Assembly (NCBI RefSeq): GCF_910592395.1
Contig: NC_088322.1
Span: forward strand, 12,893,431 to 12,957,430
From: Lineus longissimus
Taxonomy: Eukaryota; Nemertea; Pilidiophora; Heteronemertea; Lineidae
DNA length: 64,000 nt
Reading direction: 5' to 3'
Positions 2,771 through 34,135 of this stretch are shown piece by piece (position 1 is the first letter of the stretch; each line of letters begins with the position of its first letter). Both the position numbers and the translations under genes were made by a program. The notes under the pieces were generated by a model. That model was not told the origin of the DNA. It worked only from the letters and a program-made list of their open reading frames with translations, and made no database searches.

Positions 2771-3329
2771 CTGAAAGCATTGGTTTGGCGGGAACCATGG
2801 CACCAGTAACCGGCGTTTACTCGACACAAGACGGCTTCAGGCTACGACAGTCATTCCATGAGGGTCCTCTCGAAAGTAGATCTCATGTCTGCTCATTCCA
2901 GCCCAAACACAGAATCCTCTAGATCCTCCAAGTTCGTGCAAATTGTGAAGTGCTGACCTGATACATCCTTCTAACCTTATGATTCTGAAATAATGGCAGA
3001 TACCATGACGACCTAACGAAATCTCGCCATCATTGTCTCTTACACTGTAGCATAAAATGCATTATCCACGAACAGGCGTTTTGTTAAAATTGCGTCTGTG
3101 TGCTCATGGGCCCATCCTAAGAGAAAGAAAAGAAGACGATTTATATCATACCAACAGGCCAAGAAAATATACAAAAGCAACAGTATTTCTTTCCATTAAG
3201 TATAAGGCTACGGTTCAAAACCGTCAGCACTCTTCGAATTGGGTAAAAGCCATACCGTCATAGAAAAGGTCAGAAAACTACTTTGGAAAATGAATAAAAA
3301 ATAAGACTCACGCTATTCGAGAGCTGCAC

Positions 3330-3646
3330 TTACATTTCACCGTTGTCTGTTGCCTTCGAGTATTTCTGGTTCATGTTCTTCATAGGTATAGAGTTCGTAT
3401 ACTGAGTACGGTCTCGGGGACTGGAGTCGTTCAGTGTCGCTGTGTCGGGGTGGGCGACAGACGCGCCAATCTTAGTGGACGAGGTACGGTACTCGGAGGT
3501 GAAGTAACTTGCACTGGCAGTGGTCGGGCTGGGCCTGTAGCGTGCTTTCACCTGCTGGCAGATGTTATCGTTGAACAGTAGAAAAATCCAGGGATTTGTC
3601 ATACTGTTTAGGCTGGCCAATAACACAGTTATGGTCATGAAGTCGG
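3330..3646 (-). CDS. Receptor alternative TM7 exon B (long tail)
   Basis: It begins CC GAC TTC ATG after a good acceptor, again completing an alanine codon in phase 1. TM7 reads FMTITVLLASLNSMTNPWIF, 19 of 24 residues identical to exon A. It is followed by FNDNICQQVKARY, which looks like a normal helix 8 with a Cys that could be palmitoylated, then a Ser/Thr-rich tail (TTASASYFTS, TSSTK, NDSSPRD) suited to kinase and arrestin regulation. Read to TAA (3332-3330) the receptor is 447 residues, ordinary for this family. The end is GAA AT|GTAAGTG, a strong phase-2 donor that contains the stop, so this exon too may be internal. Which isoform is the main form cannot be told from sequence; B has the more typical tail. 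Confidence 0.9.
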
Positions 3647-4258
3647 CTGCAATGGGAAAGGATTGGAGAATGCATTTAATAAAAATGACAATTGTCCATG
3701 GACCATAAAAAAGAGCTTTTTCACATGGGGAAATGATATAACTATGGTTTCTTTGCATTTCTTTGAAAGGGGAGTGATGTTTCGATCATCGCTATAAAGT
3801 AAGTGTGATGCTGTCTGTAAAAACATTCTGCCGGTCGTGATTCCCATGGCAGTCTGGTGCGGTCCTCGTTATGAGGAAGTTGGTCTCGAGATTAGGGTGA
3901 TCACAGGCCTTTTGGAAGCCCTGGGGTAAATCTTAAGAGTGTGGATTAGGGACTAGCAGTAACCAACAAGCATAACAAGGAAGGGGTGGGTGAGGGGTCA
4001 ACTTATCAAAAAGGTAAACACATCAAGTATATACAAGAATTTCTTTAATCTGAAACAAAACAAATTAGTGTTAGTGCGGCAGGCAAGATACTCAGTAAAG
4101 AATTCAACAGTTAGATAAATATCTTGACAGAAGGCTCCGGTGCATTCTTACATACATAACGGGAGTCATATAACCTCTAGTGAAGACATCGAAAGTTAGT
4201 GACAGACCTGGATATAGAAAATGCATTTCTGGACATGCGCAAACATAACCTAGATTAC
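3647..4258 (-). other. Spacer intron between TM7 exons A and B
   Basis: About 612 bp lie between the possible donor of exon A and the acceptor of exon B (CCTTTCCCATTGCAG, AG at 3647-3648). It has no room for another TM1-6 exon, so exon B must share the same upstream exon as exon A. Joining A to B directly would shift the frame: B would be read out of phase and stop after 27 codons. Confidence 0.75.
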
Positions 4259-4415
4259 CTTTTCTGGTCTATATGGTGCATATTGCCGCAAGTAGTTGAG
4301 AAAATGTTTGGGGATGACGGTTTTCTTGTTGATGTCTTAGCAAATGCTAGGAATATCCACGGGTTTGTGCAGCTATTAAGACTTCCCAAGAGTACGGAGA
4401 TGGTCATAAAATAGG
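4255..4415 (-). CDS. Receptor alternative TM7 exon A (short tail)
   Basis: After the acceptor TTTCTTTCTTCTTGCACAG the exon begins CC TAT TTT ATG. The G left by the previous exon plus CC makes an alanine codon, so the frame continues. It encodes TM7 with FMTISVLLGSLNSCTNPWIF, matching the family LLGSLNSCCNPWIY signature with NPxxF in place of NPxxY. The tail is short, with KTSTRKPSSP and one Cys (TTCGN), and has no clear amphipathic helix 8. Read through to TAA (4257-4255), the receptor would be 395 residues. The end reads CAG AAA AG|GTAATC, so the TAA may be part of a phase-2 donor (GT at 4258-4257) and the exon internal. No AATAAA is evident just downstream. It is the proximal of two TM7 exons; exon B lies about 0.6 kb further along. 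Confidence 0.85.
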
Positions 4416-7053
4416 CTGTGCAAGAAGAAAGAAAGAGAGAACTTGTCAAATGATAGATTTGTTAGTCATTTTGTAAATTTACATTGTAACGTTTGGACTT
4501 TTGGTGCAAGTTGATGAAGGTATGCGATGCGACAGAAATCTTCAACAACTGTTTCTGGACACATTTGGTTAATATCTATATTGCCCTCTACAGACTGAGG
4601 AACCCGACAGCTGTTCTTATTACGAGACTGTCTGTCCCTCCATGATCTATGTATCATTGCGTGCATGTGTGCATTGTCTTGTTAATGTTTTGACCATTGT
4701 TCTGGTTAGGATAGTGAAAAAACGCAGGGAAACATGAAGATGCCCACTCCAGATACTTTGTATTTTCTTGAGGATACTACTGAGTAGTAGCTGAGGTACT
4801 ATCAAATGTGAAGTCATGATCTAACTGTAGCTGGCAACATTTATCAAATTTTGTTGCAAAACGACGCCCGTGTGAAGTGTGAATTGGTCATGCAATGGTG
4901 AAGCATCGGTAGATTTACTCAGGCACAAGCAGAGCCTGGAACCGAAGAGGTTATGGTCAGTCTGGGTGATACACTGCATCAATCAGGTTCAGAATAGGTA
5001 CAGTTGAGGCAATGTTAAACAAAGAACAAAGAATATCGAAGAACATTACTGGTGACGACCAGTTCAGAACTATATACTAGGTACTCGTGAGACCAAGATT
5101 TAACTCTTTACAGCTCAAAAGGCTCGACATACATGAATTGCACCTGAATCGATTCAACATTGCTGCAAGCTTCTCGGGTTGGTTATCGTAAAGTCGAATA
5201 TGGACGCACGTTAAAGTCACCCCAGTTTATAATTAATGCTATCATGCTTAGTAGGTATCATCATGTGTGAGTGTGTTCCACTGCATTGTGGCGATTCTGA
5301 TAGAGGAGGGGAATAAGGCAGAAACTGCCTTGCATATTGCTTCAGATATAAAAGTAAAAAATAACCCAAGACCAAGGAATGGATACCGACCGACTGTGAA
5401 TAATAAAAGACGCATCCCAAGGACTGAAAAGAGTCTATATCCCCGGTACCCAATATCAAGTGAGTTTGACTTCCGGTTCTTCTGCAAGCTTATGCAAGTA
5501 GCTCTAATTGTATGACATTTATGCACAATTTGCCAAATCTACTCTCAGGGGTCGATTCTTGTATTATAGTATTCGATACAAACATTATCTATTCACAAAA
5601 TAAAAACATCGATTAAATTAACACATCTTGGACAAGTGTATACTCATGAAAGTCAATCTTAATAATCGACATGCACTCCATAGTCTGATTAGAGAGTATT
5701 AATTGGAACAGGTTGGCAAGGCCGTGTTACTGCCGAGAAGAAAAGAGTGGATGATTGTGAGTAATAATGTGGAAAGTACAAAATGCATTAGGGTGGCAAA
5801 TAAGATGCATCTTCCTCTTAATACGAGCCGTGAAAATCAGTATCTGGAACAAATTCCGTGGAATGAATATTGAAAGAAGGCGGAACATAATCACAAAATA
5901 AGAATGACCCACTCCCAAATTCATCATGCCCACCCATGCTAAATTCGGTAAACAATTATAAACCGTTTTCATGAACGTGCTACTTTGTCAGCAATAGAAT
6001 GAGATGCCCGAGAGGTTTAAGACAGCTTATTTACAACCCCTAAACTATACCTGCTATACTTGTGTTGTTTTGGCTTAATTGATGACCCGAGTCATCTGTG
6101 GAAGATGTGCTTTCGCCTGAGGAAAGTAACATGATATTGTTGGAGGGAAGGAGAGTGACTACAAAGGAGGTTGTGATTACACATGGCGAAGATTGCTCAT
6201 GTCGGCCATTTTGGACATCTCGTAACCAATCAGCGAAGTGTGCATGCGTGCACGTTGCGAAAGGTTGAAAGAATATCAACAATGTTAGGGAAAAACAAAG
6301 GCTACTATAACCATAAAAAAAGGCATAACTTAATCATAGTTTGCAGACTGAGTATGATATGTATCATTTTTGTCTGATACATAATTAATGTTCGGTGTGG
6401 TTTTTTTTCCGTGTATGATATTATCAAGATGGCGTAAAAGTACATATTGGTTTAGGATTGGCACGATAAAGATAAGGTTAGCTAGCATGTTAGGGTACGT
6501 TCTTTATGATAGTCCTAGCATGGCAAAAAATATTTTATCGTAGTGGTCATTGTTTTAGTCTTGTTACATATTGTGCCGTCAGTTCAAGGTGTCACGTTTG
6601 CTGTAAACACTGTAAGTTGTATAAAAAGTTCTTGCATATTTATGAACAAGTGACACCAGTGGTAACTTCATGTGCTCTTTCAAGACATGTGATGGAGGGA
6701 GAAGTGGTACCTAGGCATATGCAACGTAATCCAGTTCACAAACGGACATCGATTTCAAATACATGATTCCATTATAAAGTGTGTTCATCCGCTGCGGTCA
6801 GCGAAATATACTCGATATTAGCGGTTAATCATTTGGTTGAAAGGTAATGCTGGTGCATCCCGGGTGCTTTCTATAAACCGTCTGCTTTCCAACAATAGCC
6901 TCGGTGGGCAATTTGAGTTGGCAATTACATGCTTGCGCCAATTGCAATTTTCCTGCTTTGGCGACCGCAGCGCCAAATCAACCAATTGGAATTAGGTCAA
7001 AAATATCAAAACTAAAATATAATGAATGGTGTCGGTTTTCTTCTTATACTTAC
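4416..7053 (-). other. Receptor intron between the TM1-6 exon and TM7 exon A
   Basis: The intron starts with a consensus donor (GTAAGTATAAG, GT at 7052-7053) and ends with a long pyrimidine tract and CACAG, AG at 4416-4417. It is about 2.6 kb. I looked for a further TM7 copy by searching for the NPW codons on the minus strand and saw none. The ORFs inside it look random on both strands. Confidence 0.8.
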
Positions 7054-8080
7054 CGCTATATAGAGGGGCGGGGTCCCAGGCCCAATACATCTGTGATACA
7101 AAGAAGGGAGACCAGCATATTTGGTAACACAGAATGACGGCCATTGTAAGTTTAATCGTCTTCATTTTAGCGTTAGAGATGCCCCGGCTATGGGCCCGGG
7201 GAGCTGATTCGTTCTTCCTCAGGAGTTTCTCCTCATACTGCATGGTTAGTCCCTTCGTGGCCTCCTTACTCAGAATGTGTGGCGTATTGGGCCGTGCGGA
7301 AGGGCTAGGCGTTTCCCGGGCTCCCATACTGTGCCACACGATACAACATATCCGTCCATAGCTGAATATAAGTACTAAAAGCGGTAAGAAATAGACCAGC
7401 ATGAGAAAAACAGTTACATATGCCTGTATGTAGTCAGGATCGTGTTCATCCATCCAACAGTCGTACACAGGGCACGTCATATTGGCTTTAACTTCTTGTA
7501 TTGAGAACATTATTGGCTGAGGTACAGAGAATACTAAGGATAGGAGCCAAGCTGCCCCAACCATTAGGGCTATCCGTCGCTGCGACCACGTGTGTGTGGT
7601 GAGTGGGTACACAATTGCCGTATAACGGTCCAGCGCCGTCGCAACCAGGACGTAACTAGAAGCGTACATCGCGACGACCTGTACATACTTGACAAACCTA
7701 CAGAGGAAGTCTCCACCCTGAAATCTGTAGGTCACATCCCAAGCCATTTGAGGCAGAACGTTAAAGAAAGCTACAAACAAGTCTGCTAAGCTAAGGTGCA
7801 TTATAAACATATGCATTCTCGATAACTTCTTTTTCCGCAGTGCTAACACGAGTAAAACGATCGAGTTCCCGGCGAATGCCAAAATGAATATTATCGCTGT
7901 GACACTAATCTCGATTTTTACCAAGTTTTCGTCTCTGGGATACGGTTCTTTGCATGTTCCATTCCCATCCAAGGCATCCTCCGATGTGTTCACTGATATG
8001 TTAAGAGGCAGATTAGAGTCCACATACCTAATGTGTGTATCCATAGGTATGGGAAACGGTGTTGGGCGAACAGTCACCAT
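7054..8080 (-). CDS. Vasopressin/oxytocin-type GPCR, exon encoding N-terminus and TM1-TM6
   Basis: This exon encodes residues 1-342 of a class A plasma-membrane receptor for a vasotocin-like neuropeptide. The N-terminus carries NxS/T glycosylation sites at N27, N31 and N40, and N200 lies in extracellular loop 2. Visible landmarks are GNSIVLL in TM1 (about 71), LSLADLF in TM2 with D100, the family stretch LPQMAWDVTYRF (109-120), C127 at the top of TM3, DRY at 151-153, W178 in TM4, DCW (207-209) in loop 2, P233 in TM5 and CWSPFF (322-327) in TM6, then WDP (335-337). Loop 3 is about 50 residues. The ATG is the first Met after an in-frame TAA 16 codons upstream. The exon ends AGC G|GTAAGT, phase 1, at the TM6/TM7 intron position known in vertebrate V1a and oxytocin receptor genes. 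Some segments (YASSYVLV, AIVYPL, the TM5 region) also resemble neuropeptide S/CCAP receptors, a sister group. The TM2-loop 1 stretch and WDP favour the vasopressin/oxytocin side. Confidence 0.93.
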
Positions 8081-33842: not shown

Positions 33843-34135
33843 GCCTGAATGATATGAGAGAAGAGGGTGATGTCACAATCAAGTAAGTGACCACATTGCA
33901 GCCTGATCGATATAGAGAAGAGGTTGATGTAAGAGATGGCATCATACCTGATGTCACAATCAAGTAAGCCTTCGTTGTAGTCTGATTGATATCAAAGAAG
34001 AGGGTGATGCAAGAGACGGCATTATGCCTCATGTCGCAATCAAGTAAGAGACCCAGTGTAGCCTGATTGATATGAGAGTAGAGGGTGATGTAAGAGACGG
34101 CATCATGCCTCATGTCACAATCAAGATACTGCATT
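33843..34135 (+). repeat. Minisatellite, about 80-bp unit, four copies
   Basis: Units start at 33843, 33901, 33980 and 34061 with GCCTGATTGATAT and continue GAGGGTGATGTAAGAGA, then ATGTCACAATCAAGTAAG. The first unit is short (58 bp) through an internal deletion. One minus-strand frame stays open across most of the array and gives a repetitive 113-codon ORF with LDCDMRH units; this is a by-product of the repeat. Confidence 0.88.

Follow-up and report, generated by a model that had tools for sequence, protein, structure and literature searches.

The window analysed in this study is a stretch of 64,000 nucleotides of the genome of the heteronemertean Lineus longissimus (391 Mb in 30 contigs), namely C15:12893431-12957430, and it carries on its minus strand a gene that codes for a vasopressin/oxytocin-type receptor (Table 1). 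The best protein match to this gene is the NCBI model 'cephalotocin receptor 1-like isoform X2 [Lineus longissimus]' (here P0001), which is coded in the window letter for letter by exon 1, a small cassette exon and exon B up to the TAA at 3330. Exon 1 corresponds to residues 1-342 of this model, and the joins between exon 1, the cassette and B are present in it. The form of the receptor carrying B found its best PDB matches in the V1a (2.3e-74) and oxytocin receptors (9.1e-68), then in the V2 receptor, with the next family, CCK-A, following at 1.3e-29; the form carrying exon A matches 'cephalotocin receptor 1-like isoform X2' (Lineus longissimus) at 93% over 93%. Furthermore, the LNSCxNPW signature of TM7 is complete in A and is present in B with Met in place of Cys, NPWIF being found in both. 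Judged by its sequence, the receptor is thus of the vasopressin/oxytocin type, closest to the V1a, V2 and oxytocin receptors, in agreement with the original prediction, which had been made from the letters of the window alone.

Table 1. Features of the receptor gene in the window, and the paired TM7 exons of a second receptor gene on the same contig (window positions unless C15 or L023 is given).
Feature	Position	Strand	Description
Exon 1 (coding)	8080-7054	minus	from the N-terminus through TM6 to the beginning of the third extracellular loop; 1027 nt, leaving in phase 1; basis: ORF, translation
Cassette exon	6116-6051	minus	66 nt, phase 1-1; acceptor in top 0.77% of 3491, donor in top 6.0% of 3758
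Exon A	4415-4259	minus	TM7 with Gly7.42 and the family Cys7.47, short tail; 157 nt, phase 1 to 2
ATTAAA	4049-4044	minus	206 nt past the stop of A; possible poly(A) signal for a terminal A
Exon B	3646-3334	minus	TM7 with Ala7.42 and Met7.47, long tail; 313 nt, phase 1 to 2
Predicted common last exon	3116-2300 (3' end approximate)	minus	phase-2 acceptor, ...MGP and stop, 3' UTR; AATAAA at 2318
C1, TM7 exon of the 11.26 Mb gene	C15:11261617 downwards (L023 7318-7000)	minus	TTTCAG acceptor, phase 1
C2, TM7 exon of the 11.26 Mb gene	C15:11259209 downwards (L023 4910-4350)	minus	TTTCAG acceptor, phase 1

Splice sites were scored with generic base frequencies rather than with a trained model, and are given as ranks among the 3758 GT and 3491 AG sites of the strand. 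Exon 1 ends in ...TATAGC G/gtaagt, a donor within the top 0.16% of the GT sites. The cassette, which did not figure in the earlier description of the gene, is used in isoform X2 (P0001) and lengthens the third extracellular loop by 22 Ser/Thr/Asn-rich residues, among them an Asn-Asn-Thr sequon; being of phase 1-1, it combines in frame with either A or B. Exon A is preceded by ...CTTGCACAG, its acceptor lying in the top 0.14% of the 3491 AG sites, and exon B by ...CATTGCAG, with an acceptor in the top 3.92%. The CC at the start of A and of B completes the split Ala codon, GCC, and both exons are entered in phase 1. This agrees with the earlier statement that the two exons begin after acceptors with the same split codon in the same phase, and likewise with the claim that they have their upstream exon in common. 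A protein containing A would be marked by the peptide ...AYFMTISVLLGSLNSCTNPWIFLAF.

The original prediction had placed the ends of A and B at 4255 and 3330, respectively. While in-frame stops do end at these positions, each of them overlaps a plausible donor, and the exons thus probably end at 4259 and 3334. In the case of A, the TAA (4257-4255) overlaps the donor AAG/GTAATC at 4259 (score 7.68, top 1.25% of 3758 GT sites), and in the case of B the TAA (3332-3330) overlaps AAT/GTAAGT at 3334 (score 9.24, top 0.29%); of the 3492 stop codons on the strand, 39 lie inside a donor scoring at least 7.6. With the end of A at 4259, the intron between A and B measures 612 nt, which fits the gap of about 0.6 kb given previously. 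Downstream of both exons, the acceptor at 3116 ranks in the top 0.06% of the 3491 AG sites, and joining either A or B to it maintains the frame, the two products (398 residues with A and 450 with B) ending in the same ...MGP followed by a stop. On the strength of these signals, A and B are more plausibly internal exons, both continuing into one last exon at 3116, than alternative ends of the gene, while the junction between B and 3116 stays a predicted one because P0001 reads B through to its TAA.

If A and B were instead alternative last exons, A would be terminal, with its own TAA (4255) and a poly(A) site, and the choice between the two would be made by polyadenylation, both receptors still being produced. 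An in-frame stop does close A, the ATTAAA at 4049 is followed by U/GU-rich sequence, and further signals lie between A and B (an ATTAAA at 3680 and the weaker AAGAAA at 4045, 3763 and 3753), but a search for AATAAA between the two exons found none. Additionally, isoform X2 runs B to its own TAA, and in an insect ETHR the later helices are supplied by a separate, isoform-specific exon (PMC7736071), while it counts against a terminal A that its stop overlaps a donor in the phase that fits the common last exon, such stops being those 39 of 3492. We consider alternative last exons to be unlikely, albeit worth retaining.

As a separate observation, isoform X2 crosses the strong donor AAT/GTAAGT to reach its stop despite the strong acceptor at 3116 (window 3333-3117, minus strand). 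The gene may have two B-type ends.

With phase 1 at the start of both A and B and phase 2 at their end, exactly one of them must be used for the internal-exon arrangement to yield a full receptor. In their sequence, the two exons show the features and the frame logic usual for a mutually exclusive pair, being adjacent, homologous and of equal phase, and their lengths of 157 and 313 nt, given the predicted donors, are not multiples of three. Computed with these donors, inclusion of A together with B shifts the frame so that a stop arises 231 nt upstream of the last junction, and this double product would be expected to be lost to NMD, while skipping both exons leaves a 367-residue protein with six helices; the proposal that joining A to B or omitting both breaks the frame is thereby borne out. 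Mutually exclusive use of A and B is consequently likely as far as the sequence can tell. In our view it is probable that a single gene encodes a vasopressin/oxytocin-type receptor in which TM7, helix 8 and the tail are picked by splicing. Exon 1, bearing TM1-6, would be joined, with or without the 22-residue loop cassette, to A or to B, and then to the common last exon. This arrangement implies that exon A would be spliced into mRNA, that the exon at 3116 would be used and that the choice between A and B would be regulated. A search for docking sites in this one species identified two weak inverted repeats in 3100-7060, of 19 and 16 nt (79% and 81%, respectively).

The TM7 segments of A and B are identical at 19 of 24 residues (split Ala excluded). 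Among these identical residues, 17 have degenerate codons, and at 13 of the 17 the codon differs between A and B, a recount that reproduces the figures first reported. Of the 24 codons, 5 differ at the first position, 3 at the second and 18 at the third (Fisher p = 3e-6). In a neutral simulation with the same 26 base differences, none of 20,000 runs kept 19 residues (mean 8.75, maximum 15). The best DNA match between the A and B regions covers the part coding for TM7 (71 nt, 69%), and of the 85 bases upstream of the acceptors 25 agree. Third positions are almost saturated, which makes the duplication an old one, and selection has acted on each copy for the greater part of the time that followed. 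The tandem TM7 duplication under purifying selection, as originally put forward, is thereby upheld: the A/B pair is genuine, long-standing and preserved in both its members.

The same differences bear on whether A and B might stem from different gene copies that were misplaced together, as an assembly artefact or a collapsed paralogue. No point in favour of this was found: differences at 18 of 24 third positions are too many for alleles, and among the best candidates of a search of the worm's own genome with P0001, a near-identical TM1-6 exon occurs at one place, the next being 41% identical. We give an artefact practically no credence.

The residues of the two TM7 segments were then set against those of other receptors. 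The protein search returned 210 relatives, of which 120 were listed; TM7 could be read by pattern in 52 of those listed, including P0001, the other 68 being uncounted, and the counts below refer to the 51 readable relatives other than P0001, with TM7 numbered from Pro as 7.50. Position 7.47, the Cys of LNSCxNPW, is Cys in 51/51 and in A but Met in B (0/51), and at 7.55 A carries Ala (37/51) and B carries Leu (0/51). Conversely, at 7.42 it is B that has the more common residue, Ala (38/51), and A has Gly (7/51), while at 7.33 A has Tyr (0/51) and B has Asp (3/51). Both exons read NPWIF and not NPWIY (window 4342-4415 and 3573-3646), which is a change in the NPxxY switch; Phe7.53 is present in 4/51, and its presence in both A and B is as expected if the duplication happened within this lineage. 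The idea that A is a decaying copy of B was rejected, because A resembles the family more closely than B does at both 7.47 and 7.55.

This nearness also speaks against exon A being a relic, that is, an exon formerly used and under selection for most of its life that is now unspliced, leaving the B receptor as the one product. Its frame, acceptor (top 0.14%), donor and invariant TM7 residues are all intact, where a long-dead exon should have lost some of these, although Tyr7.33 has no counterpart among the 51 readable relatives and the tail is short, unlike that of B or of the Tubulanus receptor P0002, an amphipathic helix 8 not being obvious in it by eye. A relic is further favoured by the fact that the protein and fragment searches did not find an A-containing protein, with the proviso that the fragment search also missed B. 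The protein search for A yielded two candidates, of which P0001 alone matched, and the 120 listed of the 210 relatives include no separate A-containing entry. The short-fragment search with the A and B exon peptides yielded three candidates, none at E <= 10, and as it missed B as well it says nothing about A. The NCBI cluster of P0001 comprises five members on one contig, the sequence of P0001 alone being in the comparison; together with the name 'isoform X2', this suggests that several isoforms were annotated by NCBI, which may or may not include A. Taken with the intact signals of the exon, we regard a relic as improbable.

The kink, the NPxxY switch and the beginning of helix 8 all lie in TM7. 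After TM7, the A form has 31 residues with 8 Ser/Thr and the B form 83 with 21, the share of Ser/Thr being equal. In the oxytocin and V2 receptors, helix VII is described as partly unfolding on activation (PMC9293896). The same source gives 7.42 as the sole residue of the TM7 kink that varies in the human receptors, being Ala in OTR and V2R and Gly in V1A and V1B, and reports that the OTR A7.42G mutation, or swapping of 7.42, changed affinity and potency/activity only slightly (PMC9293896). Given this slight effect, the tails are expected to matter more than 7.42, whose influence on ligand response should be mild; on the same ground, 7.42 by itself was rejected as a basis for claiming ligand selectivity. 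The A and B forms would accordingly be anticipated to differ in function, most of all in desensitisation/trafficking, since their tails offer different numbers of Ser/Thr sites, with a smaller difference in ligand potency.

The search of the worm's own genome with P0001 also revealed two further loci on C15, well clear of all other matches, at 41% (E 2e-57) and 35% identity (E 2e-51), the next match lying at 1e-23; both paralogues have oxytocin and V1a receptors as their best PDB matches. A tree of 33 rows was built from 29 of the 120 listed relatives, the window gene, the two paralogues and one outgroup. In it the two paralogues pair (100/99) apart from the window gene; both have long branches, and according to a warning of the program this pairing could be spurious. 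The window gene groups with Tubulanus P0002, at a support of 94/89 that falls short of what the program counts as firm.

The paralogue at 11.26 Mb likewise carries two TM7 exons, C1 and C2 (Table 1), a second such pair of which the original prediction made no mention. C1 and C2 are identical at 17 of 24 TM7 residues and at 22 of 42 when helix 8 is included; over these 42 codons they differ by codon position at 16, 12 and 29 (Fisher p = 2.6e-4), and none of 5000 neutral runs kept 22 residues. Five alignment columns set the A/B pair apart from the C1/C2 pair, and no column supports either other pairing, so that the A/B and C1/C2 duplications look independent, unless gene conversion hid an older one. 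A single ancient duplication before the genes split was rejected on these columns (5 versus 0), a pattern that gene conversion could mimic. The gene at 13.38 Mb has one TM7 exon within the 20 kb looked at.

As a control, a pattern scan was applied to the 6 kb downstream of six other GPCR genes in which the TM1-6 match stops before TM7. One hit each was obtained in four of the six, of which three were judged to be TM7 and one (L030) was judged not to be; a second TM7 exon was found in none of these genes within the 6 kb (three informative), which are too few for a rate. The same scan recovers A, B, C1, C2 and the single TM7 of the 13.38-Mb gene, and since it finds all five known TM7 exons it is able to see such pairs; a stricter run of it missed C1.

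Exchange of late helices by splicing has some precedent. In Drosophila OAMB (K3/AS), alternative 3' exons replace part of the bundle and the tail; OAMB is an aminergic receptor, unlike the Lineus peptide receptor. Within the receptor family of the Lineus gene, splicing of the human V2 receptor variant V2b at the TM6/TM7 junction alters TM7. V2b is described as a truncated six-helix form that is retained in the ER and dominant negative (PMC3477067), whereas A and B both code for a full TM7. The closest precedent is that of the insect ETH receptors, ETHR-A and ETHR-B, in which one neuropeptide GPCR gene has shared early-helix exons and two related alternative exons for the later helices and tail (PMC7736071, PMC8291126). 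The two forms are reported to differ in expression and ligand affinity in Drosophila and in sensitivity in the mosquito (PMC7736071, PMC8291126), where they are 43.4% identical overall and the sensitivity of ETHR-B to the two ETH peptides exceeds that of ETHR-A 28-fold and 320-fold (PMC8291126). ETHR belongs to a different receptor family and its bearers to a different phylum. Moreover, in the beetle Leptinotarsa the exons for the first four helices are shared and an isoform-specific exon supplies the last three (PMC7736071), while the Lineus gene would swap TM7 and the tail only, with a predicted common last exon. The earlier remark that few cases of this kind are known therefore stands as regards their number, with the correction that some do exist, for instance the insect ETH receptors (PMC7736071).

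The cephalotocin, annetocin and vasotocin receptors of other lophotrochozoans (Tubulanus P0002 and Platynereis P0003) are of the same family and have a similar TM7, with one TM7 per database protein; they were compared as proteins, and a second genomic exon is possible in each. In the open-licence PMC literature, no report was found for mutually exclusive exons combined with neuropeptide receptors, or with oxytocin/vasopressin. For the seventh transmembrane part, the matches there concerned gustatory receptor genes, and a looser query of the same literature gave no such peptide receptor by title among the matches listed. What appears to be new here is a TM7-only exon pair in a vasopressin/oxytocin-type receptor, alternative late-helix exons being already known from insect ETHR.

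A vasotocin-type peptide is the candidate ligand of the Lineus receptor. Two vasotocin-related precursors are shown for L. longissimus, and in hetero- and hoplonemerteans one vasotocin-related precursor yields a peptide without the two cysteines (PMC8557429), which is presumably linear. Duplicated receptors are also described there for several heteronemerteans and for Nipponemertes, and section 12 of that paper does not mention TM7 exons (PMC8557429). The presence of a pair in a second gene suggests that the intron between TM6 and TM7 makes this region easy to duplicate and useful to vary. Tentatively, this worm may have diversified its receptor family not only through additional genes but also through additional exons, with a second TM7 exon gained independently in two of the three genes found, each pair being used one at a time, and with products that might divide between them the two vasotocin-type peptides or more and less arrestin-controlled signalling. 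A swap of TM7 would constitute a natural experiment on the share of ligand potency, G-protein coupling and arrestin control that resides in the helix and tail of oxytocin/vasopressin-type receptors, and the cysteine-free second peptide of heteronemerteans allows splice form to be compared directly with ligand.

Elsewhere, a scan of bacterial and archaeal genomes identified no relative, and a tRNA gene search of the window found none. At 33870-34125 the window contains a tandem repeat with an 81-base unit, present in 3.2 copies with an 81% match.
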